IMG/VR virus record: IMGVR_UViG_3300024518_002874
Coordinates: 1-20,617 of that record
Source of the DNA: a virus
DNA: 20,617 nt
Direction: 5' to 3' (one strand)
Positions 6,616 through 20,617 of the stretch are shown one piece after another. Position numbers and translations under genes: made by a program. The notes beneath the pieces were generated by a model. The model did no database searches. It worked only from the letters and a program-made list of their open reading frames with translations, and was not told the DNA's origin. How positions within the stretch are numbered: the stretch's first letter is position 1; the number at the start of each line of letters is the position of its first letter.

Positions 6616-6956
6616 GTGCTGAACTCCGTGCCGGTCATGGAGATGCTCGAGGTGATCGCGCCGGATATCACCTTGATGGTGCCGCCGGCGTTGATGGAAT
6701 CCCCGATGATCTCAGACAGGAGGACTGTATCACCGGCCCCGACCGACTTGGAATCGATCGCCTTAAAGTTGTCAGCCTCCGACTCCCCGCTCTGCAGAAC
6801 CCACACTGAGACTGGGACCGCTACTGGGCCAGTGTTCACGATCCGGGCTTGGTTAATCACAACCCGGTCAACGTCAGCCGGGGCTGTGTAGACCACAGCA
6901 GAGGACGTGCTCAGGGCGACGCCATTCGCCAGATTTACGCCGTATGTCACTGCCAT
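6612..6956 (-). CDS. Small beta-rich virion-associated protein
   Basis: The 114-aa protein is almost entirely beta strand by pattern: ALSTSSAVVYTAPADVDRVV, VNTGPVAVPVSVWVLQSG, VGAGDTVLLSEIIGDSINAG, TIKVISGAITSSISMTG. This order (YTAPA, then VxNTG, then a strand with a W, then GDTVLLSE, then a late SxSMTGTE) is common in small phage structural proteins, and I read it as a jelly-roll or Ig-like sandwich. The start overlaps the end of the upstream coiled-coil gene by 10 bp, and the stop overlaps the gp14-like start as GTGA. It sits between the gp26- and gp14-position genes. P22 has no counterpart there, so it may be a tail or head-surface decoration. The function is not established. Confidence 0.6.
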   Translation of the reverse strand: MAVTYGVNLANGVALSTSSAVVYTAPADVDRVVINQARIVNTGPVAVPVSVWVLQSGESEADNFKAIDSKSVGAGDTVLLSEIIGDSINAGGTIKVISGAITSSISMTGTEFST

Positions 6957-7366
6957 AGTATGAGGTTCCTCAAATCTTGGATGTCATCTTCCAGCTTCTC
7001 GATCGTGGCTTCGTGGACCCCATGCAGGGCAACCAGGCTCGCGATGTGCTGGTGGATGTCGCTATCCCCGCCTTCGAGGGCTGAGATCGTTGCTCGCTGC
7101 ACGGAGATGGTCGAGAGAAGGCCTGCAATCAGGTTCTGGATGTCGGAGATGTCACCGCCGGCCCGGGCAAGCTCCGCCGTGAGCACCCCGAGCTGGCCAG
7201 CTACCGCTCCGCCGAGTAGCGCTTGGATTTCGTCCTCGTCGTCGACGGGCTCTTCGTTGACCACAGGGCCCAGTGCTTCGATGAAGCGGGCGAAGCGCAT
7301 GTCAAGCAGGCCATCCGCGCCTACGGGCATCTGGTCGCGCCGAGGGACTACGATCGGGTCTGCCAT
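6947..7366 (-). CDS. Coiled-coil virion protein, possible short tail needle (gp26 position)
   Basis: The 139-aa protein starts at ATG 7366, sharing one base with the TAA stop of the gp10-like gene. The N-terminal 35 residues (MADPIVVPRRDQM, then LLDMRFARFIEAL) are followed by an acidic linker (NEEPVDDEDE). Heptad-like helices run from about residue 47 to the end, with hydrophobic residues every 3-4 positions and one glycine-rich break (EGGDSD). In P22 the gene right after gene 10 is gene 26, a trimeric coiled-coil needle that plugs the portal and pierces the envelope. P22 gp26 is 233 aa, so this would be a short version. Neither a globular C-terminal tip nor clear gp26 N-terminal similarity beyond MADP is visible. 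The call is from position and coiled-coil character. Confidence 0.45.
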   Translation of the reverse strand: MADPIVVPRRDQMPVGADGLLDMRFARFIEALGPVVNEEPVDDEDEIQALLGGAVAGQLGVLTAELARAGGDISDIQNLIAGLLSTISVQRATISALEGGDSDIHQHIASLVALHGVHEATIEKLEDDIQDLRNLILWQ

Positions 7367-14523: not shown

Positions 14524-14577
14524 CATGTCGCATTGTTAGGTTCAACCCGACATTCTGATACGATTCAATGCGACATG
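14524..14577. repeat. Perfect 11-bp inverted repeats flanking a promoter
   Basis: CATGTCGCATT at 14524-14534 is matched by its exact reverse complement AATGCGACATG at 14567-14577, with 32 bp between. The arms bracket a candidate plus-strand promoter: one is just upstream of the -35 element, the other covers the expected transcription start. Paired operator half-sites used for looping or cooperative binding would look like this. A simple RNA hairpin is unlikely to be the function, because the left arm would not be transcribed from this promoter. Confidence 0.55.
14536..14564 (+). promoter_or_regulatory. Possible promoter of the plus-strand gene
   Basis: TTAGGT (14536-14541) and TACGAT (14559-14564) are 17 bp apart, with TG one base before the -10 element (TGATACGAT). 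The -35 element is a poor match. The start point would fall near 14571, inside the right arm of the inverted repeat, about 40 bp before the gene. Confidence 0.35.
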
Positions 14578-14610
14578 CTATTCACGCCGCAACCAAAGGA
14601 GGATCCACCT

Positions 14611-14898
14611 GTGGCAGACGACGAGAAAACGCACGACCCGGCAGAGATGCGGCTAGTCCTGATCGAGTGGGAGGATTCCGTGGGCGCCGACCCGCGGTGG
14701 CAGCTGCTCGAAGATACGGAGCCTCGGCACCCAGCCCAGTGTCGATCGGTCGGGTGGCTCGCCTGCGACGAGGACGACTACAAGACGGTGATTCCCCACA
14801 CTATCCTGCCAGGCGTGGGGGTCTGCGCTCAGGGCAGCGGGGATATGACGATCCCGACCTCGGCGGTGCGTCGGATTGTGGATCTAGTCGTCAGCTAG
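14611..14898 (+). CDS. Small conserved phage protein, only plus-strand gene
   Basis: The 95-aa protein starts at GTG 14611; AAAGGAGG lies 8 bases upstream, far better than the upstream in-frame ATGs. The sequence VLIEWEDSVGADPRWQLLED, then CRSVGWLACDEDDYKTVIPH, then GSGDMTIPTSAVRRIVDL follows a pattern I know from small proteins of many phages and prophages: W-x-DS near the start, SVGWL in the middle and IP-x-x-x-V-x-x-I-x-x-L at the end. Their function is not known. No membrane segment or signal peptide is seen. It faces away from the portal gene across a dyad-rich region, and its last 15 bases overlap the end of the HNH gene on the other strand. The separate direction suggests separate, perhaps earlier, expression. 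Confidence 0.8.
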   Translation: MADDEKTHDPAEMRLVLIEWEDSVGADPRWQLLEDTEPRHPAQCRSVGWLACDEDDYKTVIPHTILPGVGVCAQGSGDMTIPTSAVRRIVDLVVS

Positions 14899-15150
14899 GC
14901 CTGCCAGCATCCGCTCGCGCATTTTGACCTTCTCGACCACAGAGAGGGAGCCGGCTGCGTTGTTGCACCGCCTGTGGGCCAGGGCAAGGTTGGCAATGCC
15001 GTTGGCTCCGCCTCGGGAAATGGCAACAATGTGCTCCAGCGTGAACTTGTCGCCGGCGCGCTCTCGCTCCCCGCAGAAGAAGCAGAAGGGTCCGTCTCTC
15101 TTCTTGAGATCCTCTTTGTAGCGAACGAGCAAAGAGCGTGATCCGCGCAT
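14884..15150 (-). CDS. HNH endonuclease
   Basis: The 88-aa protein starts at ATG 15150 with GGGAG 5 bases upstream. The motif is complete: CFFCG (C23, C26), LEHIVAISRGGAN (H40), IANLALAHRRCNN (N54, H59, C62). The first and last Cys pairs would hold zinc, and H40 would be the general base. The N-terminal 20 residues are basic (VRYKEDLKKRDG). Small HNH proteins next to terminase genes are known to work with the terminase in DNA packaging (HK97 gp74 is the model), but free-standing HNH genes can also be homing elements. Here it lies between the large terminase block and the portal, with a hairpin-rich gap upstream. It ends in a 15-bp convergent overlap with the plus-strand gene. Confidence 0.85.
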   Translation of the reverse strand: MRGSRSLLVRYKEDLKKRDGPFCFFCGERERAGDKFTLEHIVAISRGGANGIANLALAHRRCNNAAGSLSVVEKVKMRERMLAGLADD

Positions 15151-15176
15151 AACTGCTCCCGAGGATGGTGACGAAA

Positions 15177-15221
15177 CGGCCGTTTAGCCCAATCTCCCGT
15201 GGCAGGAAAGCTAAACGGCCG
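15177..15221. repeat. Perfect 12-bp inverted repeat upstream of the HNH gene
   Basis: CGGCCGTTTAGC (15177-15188) and its exact complement GCTAAACGGCCG (15210-15221) flank a 21-base spacer. It lies 26 bp in front of the HNH start. On the minus strand TTTCGTC follows, so weak termination is possible, but the long loop argues against it. A regulatory or packaging recognition site is an alternative. Confidence 0.6.
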
Positions 15222-15299
15222 CCTAGGACCACACTTATTCTGTCTGGCTCCACCAGAGTTGGCGGGATCGTAGCACGCTTCTTGGCGCCAGACGCAGAA

Positions 15300-15334
15300 A
15301 AGCCCGCACATCAGGAGGAGTGACATGCGGGCTT
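15300..15334 (-). terminator. Hairpin with T run, likely minus-strand terminator
   Basis: AAGCCCGCA (15300-15308) and TGCGGGCTT (15326-15334) pair perfectly around 17 bases. On the minus strand the stem ends in GGGCTTTTCTG, a modest intrinsic terminator about 110 bp after the coiled-coil gene. A second hairpin, CTGCCC/GGGCAG with a 5-base loop (15341-15357), sits just before it in that direction. On the plus strand the loop holds AGGAGG and the 3' arm covers an ATG. Confidence 0.55.
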
Positions 15335-15441
15335 CCCTTGCTGCCCCGTGCGGGCAGGGCGGTGCTCTACCTAGAAGATTGATGCGATAGAAACCACAGC
15401 GTGAGAACTTGCGGGGAGACTAGCGCGGGGTCAGGGGGATG

Positions 15442-15741
15442 TCATCGGCCAAGGGGCGGCGGCCCATTCCCACCGTATCCGAGAGCGTTTGGCCTGGTGA
15501 AGACCCGAGTAGGGAGGGGTTGGCTCCGGGGATCGGGAATAGTAATCCACACCTCTTCACTCTGGCGCTTCCCGTAGTATGGCCACCCCACGTTGCGAGG
15601 TGACAGCCTTCTCGGGCCCGGGCGCTTCTCGGCAGGCACCGCCGTGCGGAGCAGGGCAGCCCGAGCCACCTCAAGCTCCCCGCGCAGCTTCCCGTTCTCC
15701 TCAATCAACCTCTCCATGAGTTGCGTCTCTGAATCCGTCAT
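15442..15741 (-). CDS. Small coiled-coil protein, downstream paralog
   Basis: The 99-aa protein starts at ATG 15741, preceded by AAGGAGG 3 bases away; an upstream in-frame start lacks a ribosome site. Residues 1-35 (MTDSETQLMERLIEENGKLR, then GELEVARAALL) form a short coiled coil that matches the start of the neighbouring 68-aa protein at about 10 of 22 positions (MTD-x-ET-x-L...E-x-NG...E). The remainder is Pro/Arg/Gly rich and probably unstructured (GPRRLSPRNVGWPYYGKR). The first 41 bp overlap the end of the upstream paralog in another frame. After it comes the hairpin-rich gap. I do not recognise a family, and the function is unknown. Confidence 0.6.
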   Translation of the reverse strand: MTDSETQLMERLIEENGKLRGELEVARAALLRTAVPAEKRPGPRRLSPRNVGWPYYGKRQSEEVWITIPDPRSQPLPTRVFTRPNALGYGGNGPPPLGR

Positions 15742-15907
15742 CTGCCTCCTTTTTTTGCTGCATGCCATCGTCAGGATCAGGCGTGCGAAACCTTGCAATT
15801 TCCGCTCTCACTCTCTCCAGCTCTAGCTGCAGCCGTAAAATCTCTCTCAAATAGTGGCCGTTCATCTCCACCGTGTCCCGCAAGAGTTCCGTCTCGGCGT
15901 CGGTCAT
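15701..15907 (-). CDS. Small coiled-coil protein, upstream paralog
   Basis: The 68-aa protein starts at ATG 15907, overlapping the previous stop as ATGA; the longer in-frame ORF would run across the conserved 119-aa gene and is rejected. MTDAETELLRDTVEMNGHYL followed by REILRLQLELERVRAEIARF is a continuous amphipathic helix, likely a coiled coil. The charged tail (PDPDDGMQQKKEADDG) overlaps and carries the ribosome site of the next gene. Similarity to that gene's N-terminus points to a tandem duplication with different tails. The function is unknown. Its place in the run suggests coexpression with the zinc-ribbon genes. Confidence 0.6.
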   Translation of the reverse strand: MTDAETELLRDTVEMNGHYLREILRLQLELERVRAEIARFRTPDPDDGMQQKKEADDGFRDATHGEVD

Positions 15908-16263
15908 TTGGGGGATTCCTCCACAAGCTTCTCGACCATCGCGTCGAAAGCCTCGTTGACTACCGGCGGCCCAGAGCCCTTCCCTCTGCGCATAGCCAGG
16001 GCTTTGGCCACAGCCTCTTCCGGCCTCCACTGCCCCTCTAGTCCCATGCATGAGCAATGGGAGCCGTTCACTTCCCACAGCTTTCCGTCGCGGGTGAACA
16101 CGACTACAGCCTCCATCTCGTAGTCGCTCCAGCAATCGTACCCGGTGTATGCGGCATGCAGCACTTCGGCCCCATCTAGGCATCCCGGCTTCTCGAAGTT
16201 CGCCTCAATGTCTTCGACGTCACCCCATTCGCCCCAGAATATCGGTCCCCTGGTTTCTCTCAT
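15904..16263 (-). CDS. Conserved phage protein with HCSC-GLEGQW motif
   Basis: The 119-aa protein starts at ATG 16263 with GAGGGGGAGGG directly before it, overlapping the previous stop as ATGA. The core, AEVLHAAYTGYDCWSDYEME, then AVVVFTRDGKLWEVNGSHCS, then CMGLEGQWRPEEAVAKAL, matches a motif I know from small proteins in many phages and some bacteria (VLF-x-x-DGKLYEVNGSHCSCYGLEGQWxPEE). The two Cys and His (residues 68-71) might bind a metal. It has no membrane segment. No function is established for the family. It lies between the zinc-ribbon/coiled-coil gene and the coiled-coil pair. Confidence 0.75.
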   Translation of the reverse strand: MRETRGPIFWGEWGDVEDIEANFEKPGCLDGAEVLHAAYTGYDCWSDYEMEAVVVFTRDGKLWEVNGSHCSCMGLEGQWRPEEAVAKALAMRRGKGSGPPVVNEAFDAMVEKLVEESPK

Positions 16264-17297
16264 CCCTCCCCCTCCTCGGTGAGTTGGGTTTCGTTTGGGA
16301 TGCTGTAGCCCATATTCTTCAGCATCTCACTATTAAGTTTCTCCATCCTCTTCCGGTGCCCGCCGTAAGTCTCGCGCAATCGTGTGTGCACAGCCGGCAT
16401 GAGGTCGTCGTCGTGGGGTTGGTCGTTGCAGCACATGCACGCAGCCAGCCTCTCAGCTCGCGCTTCCGCAGTCTCACCGTCAATAATCGGATGCCCTCTG
16501 ATGATCTCCTCCAACTCCCCAATCCGCGCATCCTTCTCATCCGGCGTCCATGTCATCGAGCGCAGGCGGTGCTGGGCGTTGGAGAGCTTGGCTTGCAGTT
16601 CATCGTTGTCCACCACCAACCCGTCGATCCGTTCCCCGTGCCCGATGTTGGACTCGACCAGTGTTGAGTTCTCGGCCTCTAGCTTGTAGATCCGCGCCTT
16701 CTGCTTCTCGATCCGGTTCAAGAGAGCCTCGCGCCGGATCCCCTTCTTGTCGAACATCCTCTTGATTCGGGCGCGTAGTTCGGTGTTCTGTTGGTTCACC
16801 TCGGTCCAGAGGCCTCCGAGCATCGTGTTCTTGTCGTTGAGTCGCGCCCGGAGTTCGACGATCAGTGCCGCTTGATCCTTCTCGCGCCTCCCGAACTCAC
16901 TCAAGCCCCGCTCGTAGTCTTCCCGTAACTGCTGCTTCTCTGACGGTGTCGCTGCCTCCCCTGAGATCTGCGACCGGAGCAGGGTCAGCGTTTTGACCAT
17001 CCCGCTGAGAGTCTCACCTCGTGCCCTGTTCTCATGCGTCAAGAAGCTGTTTGTGTCTAGGAGGCGGTCCTTGATTTGGCTGTTCTTCTCCTCCCTGGCG
17101 GCGATCTCGCAGACGTTCTTCACCAGGCTCTCTTTGTCTTCACACAACCCAGCCAGCTTTGCGCAGTTGGGGCACCCGATCTTAGGCCAATCCAACGCCA
17201 CCCCTTCGTCGCGGAAGAAATGGCTGCACTTGGCGCACAATCCGCCCTCCGCCTCTCCAGCGATCCTTGGGACATTCCTCCAATCATTCTTTGCCAT
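16260..17297 (-). CDS. Zinc-ribbon plus long coiled-coil protein
   Basis: The 345-aa protein starts at ATG 17297. Residues 21-45 form a zinc-binding module, CAKC then 17 residues then CPNC, ending CPNCAKLAGL. Residues about 60-260 are almost all predicted coiled coil (LRARIKRMFDKKGIRREALL, then RIEKQKARIYKLEAENSTLV). A second Cys pair (CMCC) lies near residue 287, and the end is acidic (QLTEEGEG). The zinc module resembles that of the next gene upstream, and both starts share the same 21-bp leader, so a local duplication is likely. Large coiled-coil proteins with a zinc ribbon could bridge DNA and protein partners. I do not recognise a known family, and no enzymatic motif is seen. It overlaps the 119-aa gene by 4 bp. 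Confidence 0.7.
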   Translation of the reverse strand: MAKNDWRNVPRIAGEAEGGLCAKCSHFFRDEGVALDWPKIGCPNCAKLAGLCEDKESLVKNVCEIAAREEKNSQIKDRLLDTNSFLTHENRARGETLSGMVKTLTLLRSQISGEAATPSEKQQLREDYERGLSEFGRREKDQAALIVELRARLNDKNTMLGGLWTEVNQQNTELRARIKRMFDKKGIRREALLNRIEKQKARIYKLEAENSTLVESNIGHGERIDGLVVDNDELQAKLSNAQHRLRSMTWTPDEKDARIGELEEIIRGHPIIDGETAEARAERLAACMCCNDQPHDDDLMPAVHTRLRETYGGHRKRMEKLNSEMLKNMGYSIPNETQLTEEGEG

Positions 17298-17315
17298 CTC
17301 ACTCCTCCCCTTCGG
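17295..17315. repeat. 21-bp direct repeat, copy 1
   Basis: This copy covers the ATG and ribosome-binding site of the 345-aa zinc-ribbon gene plus the last codons of the gene before it. It is identical to 17734-17754. The flanking bases differ. Confidence 0.8.
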
Positions 17316-17736
17316 CTTTGCGCATCCTCCAATGCTGGAGGTCGAACAACTCCTGGAATTCAGCCAGCTCGGTGGCTTGCTCCGCCAGCTTCGCTGCCTG
17401 CTCGTTGGCTAGTGCGTTCTTTCGTATCGGCTGTCTGCAATCCTCGAGACTGGCGTGCCATGCCCTGACTAGAATGTCTCCATCGATACAGCGGAACTCC
17501 ATTTCACGCCCTTTGAACCCAAGGAACGTTCCCTGGGTTGGCTGGCTCTTGTTTCTGCGTGAGATGAACGCGCCCGCGCTCAACCTCGCCTGGATCTTGT
17601 CCAGCCTCGCCAGCTTTTTGCAGTTGGGGCACTTAATGCACCCGGGCCGCATTACCACGTCCGCAGGCTCCCAATGCCCGCACTTCGAGCACCTGTAGTC
17701 CTTGCCGCTCGTTCCCATCCAGAACATGTGGCTCAT
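17299..17736 (-). CDS. Zinc-ribbon protein, short paralog
   Basis: The 145-aa protein starts at ATG 17736, which has AAGGGGAGGAG 4 bases upstream; an upstream GTG extension would overlap the small membrane ORF and is rejected. Residues 16-39 hold CSKCGHWEP, CIK and CPNCKKLARL, a C-x2-C and C-x2-C zinc ribbon with 16 residues between, plus an extra Cys at 33. The spacing and the CPNCxKLA ending match the start of the following gene. Residues 60-90 are beta-like (GTFLGFKGREMEFRCIDGDI), and the last 50 are helical (ANEQAAKLAEQATELAEFQE). The stop overlaps the ribosome site of the next gene, one base before its ATG. The function is unknown; DNA, RNA or protein binding through zinc is plausible. 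Confidence 0.7.
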   Translation of the reverse strand: MSHMFWMGTSGKDYRCSKCGHWEPADVVMRPGCIKCPNCKKLARLDKIQARLSAGAFISRRNKSQPTQGTFLGFKGREMEFRCIDGDILVRAWHASLEDCRQPIRKNALANEQAAKLAEQATELAEFQELFDLQHWRMRKAEGEE

Positions 17737-17754
17737 CTCACTCCTCCCCTTCGG
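17734..17754. repeat. 21-bp direct repeat, copy 2
   Basis: This copy covers the ATG and ribosome-binding site of the 145-aa zinc-ribbon gene. Unlike copy 1 it lies outside any upstream coding frame, in the 26-bp gap after the small membrane ORF. Confidence 0.8.
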
Positions 17755-17762
17755 TGGTGGGC

Positions 17763-17918
17763 TTACGTTGCCAACGCATTGTAGATGTGTCCGCACACAC
17801 CTAACACAAGTGAAAACACCGCCACTTTCAACAGCCACTCCGCCTTCCGCATGTCACTCTCGGCGCCTTCCATGAGTTCACTTACAGTCTTCTCGCTGTC
17901 TGGCTTTCTTCCGAACAT
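17763..17918 (-). CDS. 51-aa single-helix membrane protein
   Basis: The ORF runs from ATG 17918 to TAA 17763. The ATG is 2 bp after the terminase stop, and the terminase end supplies a GGGGGTAGG ribosome site. The first 26 residues are charged (MFGRKPDSEKTVSELMEGAE), followed by one hydrophobic helix (WLLKVAVFSLVLGVCGHIYN, about 28-47) and a short tail. Tight coupling and a clean membrane segment support a real gene. It might be a holin, antiholin or other envelope protein, but single-helix miniproteins cannot be assigned from sequence. It lies between the large terminase and the first zinc-ribbon gene. Confidence 0.6.
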   Translation of the reverse strand: MFGRKPDSEKTVSELMEGAESDMRKAEWLLKVAVFSLVLGVCGHIYNALAT

Positions 17919-17920
17919 AC

Positions 17921-19207
17921 CTACCCCCATTCGCTCTCAAATGTGATGCTCTCTGTCTCCACAACCGCCCCGACCTTCTCTAAGGCCTCGGGCAATAACC
18001 GGAACGAATCAGACGCATGGCTTGACCAGTCATGCACTGGCACAGCGCTAAACCGCCCCATTTTCTCGCTCCACTCAAAGTGATATGCCTCCAGCGAGTT
18101 GCGACCCTCTTCGGTCTCCTCCTGGTCGAACCAGCACCGATCCAGGATGTGCCGCACAGCCTCTATCTGATCCTCTATCGCCAGCTTGTTGCGTGGCCGG
18201 GGCAATACAGTCGCCTTGATACCCAGGTTCGCCAGCGTCTCGACACGGGACCCAGAGCCAAGCTCCGATGCCTTCGCGTCGTGCGGGAAGATGTGATCCC
18301 CGTAGATGTAGTCTCGGTCCTTCAGCACCTTCGCGTAGTGGTCGAACGTAGCACGGTTGTTGGCGTAGAAGTCAATGATGTGCACCTCGCGACCAATCAC
18401 TTGAAAGAACCAGATCGCAGTGTCATCACCGAAGCCTAGATCCCATAGCGTATGGACTGAGTGATCTTTCTCGTACGGTACCGACCTGATCCGCCCATCC
18501 TTCTCGGCGGCGTGCATCTGCTTGCCGTAGACAGAGCCCTCCAGCACGCCTTGGAACGAGCAATAGAACTCCTGCTCGATCATCTCATCGGACATGCCGG
18601 CTTTGCGCTCTTCCTCGATCGCTTCGAGGCTAATACGCCCCGTATCCTCGACGGTCAGCAGCGAGCAGAACCAGCTCGGGTTGTTCTTCGCCATATCGTA
18701 CAGCACCTTGCCGTGGTTCCTTCCACGCGGTGTGTACTCGAATGTTGCCCACCCACCGTTCTCTGCAAGGATCGGTCGGATGTAGTCCCATGCCCCAGGC
18801 CTCGAGACCGAGTACTCACTGAAGTTCACACCGATCGGGTTGGGGCCGACAAGCGAGTCAGCCTCCGACCCAAGCACGTTGATGATGGAGCCATTGAGTA
18901 GCTCGATCATCATGTCGACGTTGTTTGTGCTCTTGCGCAGCTCCATCGGCACAGCCTGGTCGATAACCTTCCGCCCCTCGCTGTCGATGTTGTTCCAGAT
19001 GAACTTGCGGGCTTGGGTCTTCGTCGGTCCGATGTGCCAGTAGACACCAGTGGTCTGCGCTGCGCACTTCGCAAGGAAGTTCAGCGCCGTGCTGTCCTTG
19101 CCCGCCCTGCGATGCCATACGAGGCAAGCACGCAAGCACCCCTCGTCCATCGCCCGAAGGAACGGCAGTTCATAGTCGCGCGGCCACCAGTCATTCGGCA
19201 TCTGCAT
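17921..19207 (-). CDS. terL: Terminase large subunit
   Basis: The 428-aa protein starts at ATG 19207; the longer ORF would cover the small membrane gene upstream. The ATPase domain shows a Walker A-like loop WHRRAGKDS (31-39), a Walker B-like strand PIGVNFSEYS (124-133) with E131 as the likely catalytic acid, and a coupling motif EYTPRG (158-162 region). The nuclease domain has D256 in HTLWDLGFGDD, D310 in IFPHDAKA and acidic residues near the end (VHDWSSHASDSFRLLP), as in RNase H-like terminase nucleases. The family role is to cut concatemers and drive DNA into the procapsid through the portal. P22 gp2 is 499 aa, so this is shorter. Membrane miniprotein genes lie on both sides. Confidence 0.92.
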   Translation of the reverse strand: MQMPNDWWPRDYELPFLRAMDEGCLRACLVWHRRAGKDSTALNFLAKCAAQTTGVYWHIGPTKTQARKFIWNNIDSEGRKVIDQAVPMELRKSTNNVDMMIELLNGSIINVLGSEADSLVGPNPIGVNFSEYSVSRPGAWDYIRPILAENGGWATFEYTPRGRNHGKVLYDMAKNNPSWFCSLLTVEDTGRISLEAIEEERKAGMSDEMIEQEFYCSFQGVLEGSVYGKQMHAAEKDGRIRSVPYEKDHSVHTLWDLGFGDDTAIWFFQVIGREVHIIDFYANNRATFDHYAKVLKDRDYIYGDHIFPHDAKASELGSGSRVETLANLGIKATVLPRPRNKLAIEDQIEAVRHILDRCWFDQEETEEGRNSLEAYHFEWSEKMGRFSAVPVHDWSSHASDSFRLLPEALEKVGAVVETESITFESEWG

Positions 19208-19211
19208 TGCG

Positions 19212-19370
19212 CTACCCCGGGAGTGAAGGCGCGAACATATAAGCCAACACCATTGTCCAAGCCGCAACAAAGCCTACGTTCCACCCGGCCCCAAGTCTAC
19301 AGTTGCCGACTATCATCCCTCCGATGTACGCCGAAGCCACCGCTATCACAAGATTCCACCCTTCCACCAT
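19212..19370 (-). CDS. 52-aa two-helix membrane protein (holin-like)
   Basis: The ORF runs from ATG 19370 to TAG 19212. GGAGGGGGAG lies just upstream, inside the last codons of the small terminase gene, whose stop is 2 bp away. Two hydrophobic helices are visible: NLVIAVASAYIGGMIVGN (6-23) and VGFVAAWTMVLAYMFA (32-47), joined by a short basic turn (CRLGAG). The end is PSLPG. Two-helix proteins this small are typical of pinholin-like or other phage membrane proteins. There is no endolysin nearby to support a lysis cassette, so holin is only a suggestion. Confidence 0.6.
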   Translation of the reverse strand: MVEGWNLVIAVASAYIGGMIVGNCRLGAGWNVGFVAAWTMVLAYMFAPSLPG

Positions 19371-19372
19371 TA

Positions 19373-19660
19373 TCACTCCCCCTCCGGCTTCCCCGCATAG
19401 CTCACAACACTAACCGCCAAAGGCTCACCGCCCTCGCCGGTTACCTCGATTGCCTTGCGCTTCGGTGCGACGTATTGGGCTAGCTCTTTGAACATCTGGC
19501 CAGCCAATGCCCAGTCCTCTGCCTTCTCCGCTTGCTTCGCGATCCTCGCCATACCTTCGATCGGATCGCACTTCAGCTTCGCAAGTTTCTCTTGGACCGC
19601 GAGGGTCTTTTTCGGAATGGACCCCTTAACCCGGCCCCCAGTTTTTCTGCCTTTAGCCAT
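19373..19660 (-). CDS. terS: Probable terminase small subunit
   Basis: The 95-aa protein starts at ATG 19660 and ribosome-site support is weak. The N-terminus MAKGRKTGGRVKGSIPKKTL is basic and matches the GRKTGGRxKGxxNK-type start of small phage proteins placed just before large terminases. The core, CDPIEGMARIAKQAEKAEDW then ALAGQMFKELAQYVAPKRKA, is a helical pair ending in the YVAPKRKAxE pattern I know from proteins annotated as small terminase. The C-terminus is beta-like and ends in PEGE, encoding the next gene's ribosome site. Expected role: binding the packaging site and loading the large subunit. It is shorter than P22 gp3 (162 aa) and not evidently related to it. It might instead be an accessory DNA-binding protein. 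Confidence 0.6.
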   Translation of the reverse strand: MAKGRKTGGRVKGSIPKKTLAVQEKLAKLKCDPIEGMARIAKQAEKAEDWALAGQMFKELAQYVAPKRKAIEVTGEGGEPLAVSVVSYAGKPEGE

Positions 19661-19677
19661 GTCTATGCCCGTCTATG

Positions 19678-19914
19678 TTAGATTTGAGTTTCGGCATCCG
19701 TGTCGCTCTTCCTGAGCGCCTTGATCAGCACTCTGTAGTTCCTAAAGATGCGATCGCCATCCCCATCAATCGACCACCCTCCGGCCACATTCGGTACCCA
19801 CCTCGACCTGTTGTCTAGTAGGGTTTGAATATCCGCAGTCAATTCTCTGCACTGTTGCTCACGTAGCAGCAATCGATCTATCACTCGTCCCTCCCAGCCG
19901 CCGTCGTCGTCCAT
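19678..19914 (-). CDS. 78-aa protein of unknown function
   Basis: The ATG at 19914 lies 2 bp after the stop of the resolvase gene, with GAGAGGGGGAG in front. The product has an acidic start (MDDDGGWEGR), a helix (VIDRLLLREQQCRELTADIQ, then TLLDNR), a Trp-containing turn (WVPNVAGGWSIDGDGD) and a basic helix (RIFRNYRVLIKALRKSD). No membrane segment or known motif is seen, and I do not recognise the family. It lies between RusA and the probable small terminase, so a DNA-processing context is likely. Confidence 0.6.
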   Translation of the reverse strand: MDDDGGWEGRVIDRLLLREQQCRELTADIQTLLDNRSRWVPNVAGGWSIDGDGDRIFRNYRVLIKALRKSDTDAETQI

Positions 19915-19916
19915 CC

Positions 19917-20426
19917 CTACTCCCCCTCTCGATTCACATGCTCAAAGTATTCTCGCAACGACCTAGGCCTTCGCCCCTCCAACTGATTCATCCGTCGGCG
20001 CCAAGCGTCGAAGCCTCGCAGCTCTTCTTTGAACTCGTCCCGCTCCATCACCCGAACATCACCCCTCTCCTTAATCACCATCCGCACAAACCCTTTCTTC
20101 GGCGGCGCATACTCCCAACGATAGCGCCCATCAGCCGAACCGAGAACCTCTGGCGAGTCATCCGTGACCACCAACCCCACGAGGGCGTCGATCAAAGGCT
20201 TGAACGACTCCGCCAAGTTGTCGCTATCCGGCTCGCTTGAGCTGTACCGAGTGCACGCCACCGAAGCTTGATCGAGTAACCGCTTCGGCACCCCCTGCGC
20301 ATTCACTGAACTCCTCACCCAAGTCTGCCAGCGATCCTTATTCCGATTCTTCGTCCGCCAGTGCAGATTGCTCGCACTGTTCAGGTTCGGCAGGCCCGGG
20401 ATCTCAAATTCGATTCGGTAGTTCAC
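19917..20426 (-). CDS. rusA: RusA-like Holliday junction resolvase
   Basis: The 169-aa protein starts at GTG 20426, overlapping the previous stop as GTGA, with AGGAT 6 bases upstream. A longer ORF from 20528 would overlap the preceding gene by over 100 bp. The N-terminus YRIEFEIPGLPNLNSASNLH then WRTKNRNKDRW fits the RusA beta strand and basic loop. The active-site block is EPDSDNLAESFKPLIDALVG then LVVTDDSPEVLG, with the acidic residues PDxDN, D in IDAL and DD that hold magnesium in RusA. A charged helical tail of about 50 residues ends in NREGE. E. coli RusA is 120 aa, so the tail is extra. Role: resolving branched replication intermediates before packaging, which suits a place beside terminase. 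Confidence 0.85.
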   Translation of the reverse strand: MNYRIEFEIPGLPNLNSASNLHWRTKNRNKDRWQTWVRSSVNAQGVPKRLLDQASVACTRYSSSEPDSDNLAESFKPLIDALVGLVVTDDSPEVLGSADGRYRWEYAPPKKGFVRMVIKERGDVRVMERDEFKEELRGFDAWRRRMNQLEGRRPRSLREYFEHVNREGE

Positions 20427-20611
20427 GCGCCATCCTGCCTTACTATCCGTGGTGCCGGTGGGCTTCTCGTAGTGAGCCCGTCGCGGCCAAAAAATACCAG
20501 ATACAGCTTGCTCCGAGCTGACTGCCATTGGTCTCGGTCAAACTTACCTCCGAACCACATACCATCACATGTATCCTCGAAAACTTGCAGCAATTCTTCT
20601 TCACTCATCAT
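20423..20611 (-). CDS. Small unknown gene at right edge, start uncertain
   Basis: The reading frame is open to the window edge. The ATGs at 20611 and 20608 are candidate starts, but the ribosome site may lie outside, so the gene could be longer. The visible product of about 62 aa (MMSEEELLQVFEDTCDGMWF, then GGKFDRDQWQSARSKLYLVF, then FGRDGL) has an acidic helix, an aromatic middle and a Pro/Arg tail. It overlaps the resolvase start as GTGA. I do not recognise a family. Confidence 0.5.
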   Translation of the reverse strand: MMSEEELLQVFEDTCDGMWFGGKFDRDQWQSARSKLYLVFFGRDGLTTRSPPAPRIVRQDGA

Positions 20612-20617
20612 CCCCAC

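Follow-up and report, generated by a model that had tools for sequence, protein, structure and literature searches.

Two putative membrane miniprotein genes flanking the large terminase gene of an uncultured podovirus

Small genes beside phage terminase genes

The closest described arrangement is that of the Burkholderia phage JG068, where, according to the available text of the paper describing it, gp42, a putative 60-aa pinholin with two transmembrane segments and a positive C-terminus, is encoded just before the terminase genes, ORFs of 68 and 74 aa lie between TerL and a SAR endolysin gene, and a pinholin before the terminase is said to be present also in SP6 (PMC3765740). The Klebsiella phage JKP2, as far as the available part of its description goes, has its lysis cassette after the packaging genes (PMC10194101), while terminase and holins are not mentioned in the available part of one review on small phage genes (PMC11323111).

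Here we analysed a 20,617-base virus record (hereafter the window), in which the core head and packaging genes all lie on the minus strand. These include a P22-type portal (PF16510, E 1e-171), a coat protein (phrog_283), a head-tail adaptor (phrog_637) and a P22-type stabilisation protein of 487 aa (PF11134). The large terminase subunit, TerL, comprises 428 aa from its ATG (17921..19207, minus; PHROG phrog_2, E 5e-22) and carries HRRAGKD, WDLG, PHD and HDW at positions common with its homologues (up to 54% identity), which we take to be the Walker A and nuclease motifs. Upstream of it lies a 95-aa TerS candidate (19373..19660, minus), with tblastn matches at 18 loci (E<1e-3); it adjoins TerL in relatives, and its label rests on this position, since no family model names it.

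The sequence-only reading had proposed that two ORFs of 52 and 51 aa, missing from the annotation, fit into the gaps on either side of TerL, and both were found there on the minus strand. ORF B (19212..19370) encodes a 52-aa predicted two-helix membrane miniprotein from an ATG start and fills a gap of 165 nt, leaving 2 nt to TerS and 4 nt to TerL, and its assignment draws on this spacing, its ribosome site and its hydrophobicity. ORF A (17763..17918), also starting with ATG, has a charged N-terminal half and one predicted C-terminal transmembrane helix, and fills a gap of 184 nt, 2 nt from TerL and 26 nt from the next gene. That gene (17299..17736, minus) encodes a zinc-ribbon-like protein, with weak zinc-ribbon matches below the cut-off and a ribosome site of -11.2. 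Two neighbouring genes within 16260-17736 (minus) have in common an N-terminal zinc-ribbon-like pattern, CxKC...CPNCxKLA, whose score was equalled in 1 of 1000 shuffles. From ORF A onwards, the genes that separate TerL from the portal form a poorly conserved block. Two consecutive small ORFs (~15640-15907, minus) start with MTDAETELLRDTVEMNG and MTDSETQLMERLIEENG and by eye resemble a tandem duplication. A stretch of 1.6 kb separates the portal from the minus-strand gene that ends at 15904, and in it lie a 121-codon plus-strand ORF (14533-14898) and an HNH endonuclease gene (14884-15150).

Coding evidence for ORFs A and B

Each ORF starts 2-3 nt beyond the stop codon of the gene before it, in a gap that would otherwise be anomalous, and draws its ribosome site from the end of that gene. 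The earlier claim that these sites are strong was borne out, both falling in the top 2-3% for the 288 ATGs of the minus strand. The site of ORF B, GGAGGGGGAG (19371..19390, minus), consists of the last codons of the TerS candidate and has an anti-SD pairing energy of -11.2 kcal/mol, as strong in 1.7% of these ATGs; that of ORF A, GGGGGT (17919..17938, minus), lies inside the TerL end and reaches -9.7 kcal/mol, as strong in 2.8%. An alternative in-frame ATG at 17930 would extend ORF A to 55 aa, but with a weak ribosome site (-2.7 vs -9.7 kcal/mol). TerS, TerL and the portal have weaker ribosome sites than the accessory genes. The sites of the latter (16263-19914, minus) are near-identical, with a purine-rich ending, GAGGGGGAG or GGGGAGGAGTGAG, serving the genes at 19914, 17736, 17297 and 16263, and several arise where the gene ahead codes for an EGE-type C-terminus.

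The proposed membrane character, two helices in B and one in A, also held, as a prediction, in hydropathy and modelling. The Kyte-Doolittle peaks are moderate (1.55 and 1.64 for B, 1.78 for A), and a mean of 1.5 over 19 residues was reached by only 3 of the 97 ORFs on the minus strand that have 30 aa or more, namely A, B and, through an internal segment, the 487-aa stabilisation protein. AlphaFold2 run without an alignment modelled B as a pair of helices (pLDDT 79) and A as a single long one (pLDDT 87), although such single-sequence helices carry no information on membranes. In B a short loop with one arginine joins the helices, the net charge is 0 and the C-terminus, YMFAPSLPG, is uncharged. 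In A a charged segment of ~27 residues precedes the C-terminal helix, the tail NALAT is uncharged, and the K/R residues ahead of the helix suggest an N-in topology.

How often such frames would arise by chance was assessed by shuffling each gap 20,000 times with dinucleotides kept, and scoring gap-filling ORFs with a hydrophobicity at least that of the real one. Equivalent ORFs appeared in 0.87% (B) and 0.01% (A) of the shuffled gaps; the ribosome sites lie mostly within the preceding gene, hence outside the shuffled stretch. Codon usage was compared, leaving one gene out at a time, with 515 in-frame windows from 20 other phage genes, bearing in mind that about 50 codons per ORF give such statistics little power. 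Synonymous codon choice was atypical, with 99.2% of the in-frame windows outscoring A and 99.4% outscoring B, while off-frame windows equalled or exceeded the ORFs on this score in 82% of cases for A and 89% for B; the full codon score of ORF B was equalled by 22.6% of off-frame windows. This atypical choice fits recent acquisition and non-coding sequence equally well. In the reading frame both ORFs have their highest GC3 (by frame, A 0.63/0.53/0.39 and B 0.64/0.56/0.50) and their highest share of first-position purines (A 0.69/0.49/0.65 and B 0.68/0.37/0.60).

A rival reading takes either ORF, or both, for open frames that arose by chance in short stretches of non-coding DNA, or for recombination remnants at the TerS-TerL junction. 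It would account for the atypical codon choice and for the lack of homologues among the sequences searched (see below), and a gap filling like that of B in 0.87% of shuffles keeps it in play for that ORF. Against it stand the strong ribosome sites, the starts and stops fitted to the neighbours, a hydrophobicity nearly unique on the minus strand, and the tight packing that is otherwise usual in this operon, where spacing is mostly -20 to +26 nt and the two longer gaps listed (246 and 1607 nt) contain other ORFs. We regard this reading as unlikely. Given their position, their ribosome sites, their rarity in shuffles and their hydrophobicity, we judge with good confidence that both ORFs are real genes.

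The TerS-TerL junction in relatives

Relatives of TerL were collected by a single-sequence search, which gave 2 viral-contig loci, and by an alignment search, from which the best 80 viral-contig and best 80 genome-contig loci were taken; among the relatives listed the best TerL identity was 54%. No homologue of either ORF was accepted among 175 TerL-relative loci, 16 coat-relative loci, 50,697 phage records, the viral contigs searched by peptide pattern, or 385 genomes from the class to which Pelagibius litoralis (L119) belongs. Neither ORF matched a family in PHROGs, Pfam or NCBIfam, a search of Rfam gave no match, and ORF B had no match among solved structures. A portal search for closer relatives confirmed none, and the 16 loci of the coat search, with a best full-length match of 34%, included none close enough for dN/dS on A or B.

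Several candidate matches were rejected. One locus (L016) matched ORF B with 42% identity over 45 residues, but the matching part lies inside an open frame that runs for at least 1092 aa and by eye reads like a tail-tip protein. Marginal matches in alphaproteobacterial genomes, in 5 of 385 for B and 3 of 385 for A (best E 1.5e-4 and 1.1e-3 per genome), comprised five with an internal stop and three within longer frames of 220, 357 and 83 codons. The best weak match of ORF B was to the membrane proteins TIGR04086 and DUF3792 (E 0.0083 and 0.013), at 16.3 of 30 and 16.1 of 31.3 bits, under the curated cut-offs, and likely reflects composition only.

In relatives a match to this TerS candidate adjoins TerL at 11 loci besides the window at E <= 1e-3, some of them probably near-identical (looser settings counted 18). 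Since the two genes overlap in 9 of these 11, by 14-26 nt, with one further pair 2 nt and another 130 nt apart, ORF B is a one-gene insertion at this junction. A mechanical scan for small hydrophobic ORFs touching TerL found 5 in 159 listed relatives upstream and 4 in 167 downstream, and we rejected recurrence on this basis, as these counts do not exceed those of the opposite-strand control (15/159 and 9/167), a harsh control given that antisense frames tend to be hydrophobic. The suggestion that gene callers miss such genes appears doubtful, because 4 of 12 annotated relatives have an annotated CDS of 49-66 aa directly beside TerL, showing that callers do not generally overlook them. A further TerL relative (L003:2862-5816) reads as a single frame of 984 aa containing two long insertions, which by eye resemble inteins.

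Prophages of Acetobacter offered a clearer case. In A. lovaniensis (L156) a 53-codon ORF with two hydrophobic segments (1465-1626) directly follows the gene in the TerS position, and 1 of 48 other genomes of the genus searched holds a copy with 93% identity (L194). The two-helix ORF in the terminase cassette is kept there across DNA with ~79% identity. The two copies differ at 22 DNA positions, distributed 4/1/17 over the codon positions (pS 0.468, pN 0.029), while the other two frames lack such a codon-position pattern, which indicates that, in at least one prophage group, a gene for a membrane-type miniprotein occupying the TerS-TerL slot is under selection. This ORF resembles ORF B in its size, its two hydrophobic segments and its slot between the TerS-position gene and TerL, but their sequence similarity is unconvincing (BLASTP E 0.014 in a single gapped comparison; local score reached by 0.65% of 2000 shuffles) and, unlike ORF B, it is in frame with the upstream gene. 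It starts with TTG right after the TGA of that gene, a junction also present in L194 and one that either re-initiation or stop read-through could explain.

A second look-alike is XRM24263.1 of the Vibrio phage vB_VibP_ZCVPP1, a 60-aa protein annotated as hypothetical and encoded directly upstream of TerL, which is hydrophobic with two segments recognised by eye and has no sequence similarity to ORF B. With the phage of the window, the Acetobacter prophages (under purifying selection) and this Vibrio podovirus as instances, the TerS-TerL junction of this terminase group might be a recurrent landing site for unrelated two-helix miniproteins of ~52-60 residues sharing a job in a late membrane event, an idea to which we give little credence.

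Possible roles of the two products

On balance, and with some reservation, we favour the explanation that A and B are real, separately acquired accessory genes in the packaging and structural operon of a podovirus with a P22-type portal. Ribosomes finishing TerS and TerL would re-initiate on B and A, and the products, to judge from their place in the operon, would be made late, alongside the packaging and head proteins. Their destination would be the inner membrane, in which B would form a helical hairpin and A would cross once in the N-in orientation, leaving its charged helix in the cytoplasm. There B might, like small two-span holins, help to damage the membrane or to time lysis, and A would be an accessory membrane protein; the two need not act as a pair.

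Since a putative small two-span pinholin lies beside the terminase in JG068, the arrangement is said to recur in SP6 and the lysis cassette follows the packaging genes in JKP2, a lysis role is the leading guess for B, albeit one that we hold tentatively and would expect to fail more readily than to hold. Both gp42, as far as the available text describes it, and ORF B are predicted small two-span proteins whose genes adjoin TerS or TerL and are preceded by a strong ribosome site, and both phages have small ORFs after TerL. They differ in position, as gp42 precedes TerS whereas ORF B lies between TerS and TerL, and in their features, gp42 having 60 aa, a positive C-terminus and a SAR endolysin nearby, and B having 52 aa, a net charge of 0 and no endolysin in the window. 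Measured against the two-span pinholins or class II holins, for which we took ~60-70 aa and two transmembrane segments, ORF B has 52 aa and two moderately hydrophobic segments, with two helices in AlphaFold2. Pinholins are described in the same text as having a positively charged C-terminus (PMC3765740), a feature that ORF B lacks.

Single-span holins of the T7 type have one transmembrane segment and a charged C-terminal tail, and ORF A, whose helix is C-terminal and whose tail is uncharged, does not fit such a holin or antiholin. An Rz/Rz1 spanin, taken as an N-terminal membrane anchor with an overlapping lipoprotein ORF, was rejected for A on the position of its helix and because the minus-strand ORFs listed include no lipobox-like one. 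Elsewhere in the window a 139-aa protein (6947-7366, minus) weakly matches Rz-like spanins (phrog_89, E 0.0043) and has no segment above the hydrophobicity cut-off, and its spanin identity was left as weak.

The sequence-only reading had offered two roles for the pair, and neither fared well. That A and B form a holin/antiholin pair timing lysis is improbable. In its favour, the coding strand of the 20.6 kb has no other candidates for small membrane proteins, and holins lie beside the terminase genes in JG068 and, by the account in that paper's available text, SP6 (PMC3765740). Yet no holin family model in PHROGs, Pfam or NCBIfam matched either ORF at E up to 1, neither has a charged C-terminal tail, they are not alternative starts of one gene, and the proteins scanned in the window, which is a 20.6-kb fragment, include no endolysin or SAR endolysin. 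The other role, a membrane tether for TerL or for the packaging complex, is not supported and seems to us highly improbable: adjacency with probable co-translation, and the charged segment of ~27 residues ahead of the helix of A, speak for it, but lying side by side is in itself a weak argument, homologues of A and B are missing from the TerL relatives searched, and phage packaging has no known requirement for a link to the membrane. A better placed alternative, although still a minority possibility, is that A and B are moron-type membrane proteins that modify the host, for example by blocking superinfection or host defence. It would suit a lineage-specific insertion with atypical codon use, and A opens the poorly conserved gene block between TerL and the portal; it sits less well with the lack of a family match in PHROGs, Pfam and NCBIfam and of a promoter of their own, as no sigma-70-like site was seen in 15000-20617.

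None of this alters the picture of packaging, and A and B are probably lineage-specific accessory miniproteins of a familiar kind. The Acetobacter analogue, being under purifying selection, is a more solid and testable result than A and B themselves. If translated, A and B would add two more orphan membrane miniproteins to the many small phage proteins that have no assigned function and, in an uncultured podovirus, would be simple candidates for an effect on lysis or on the host membrane.
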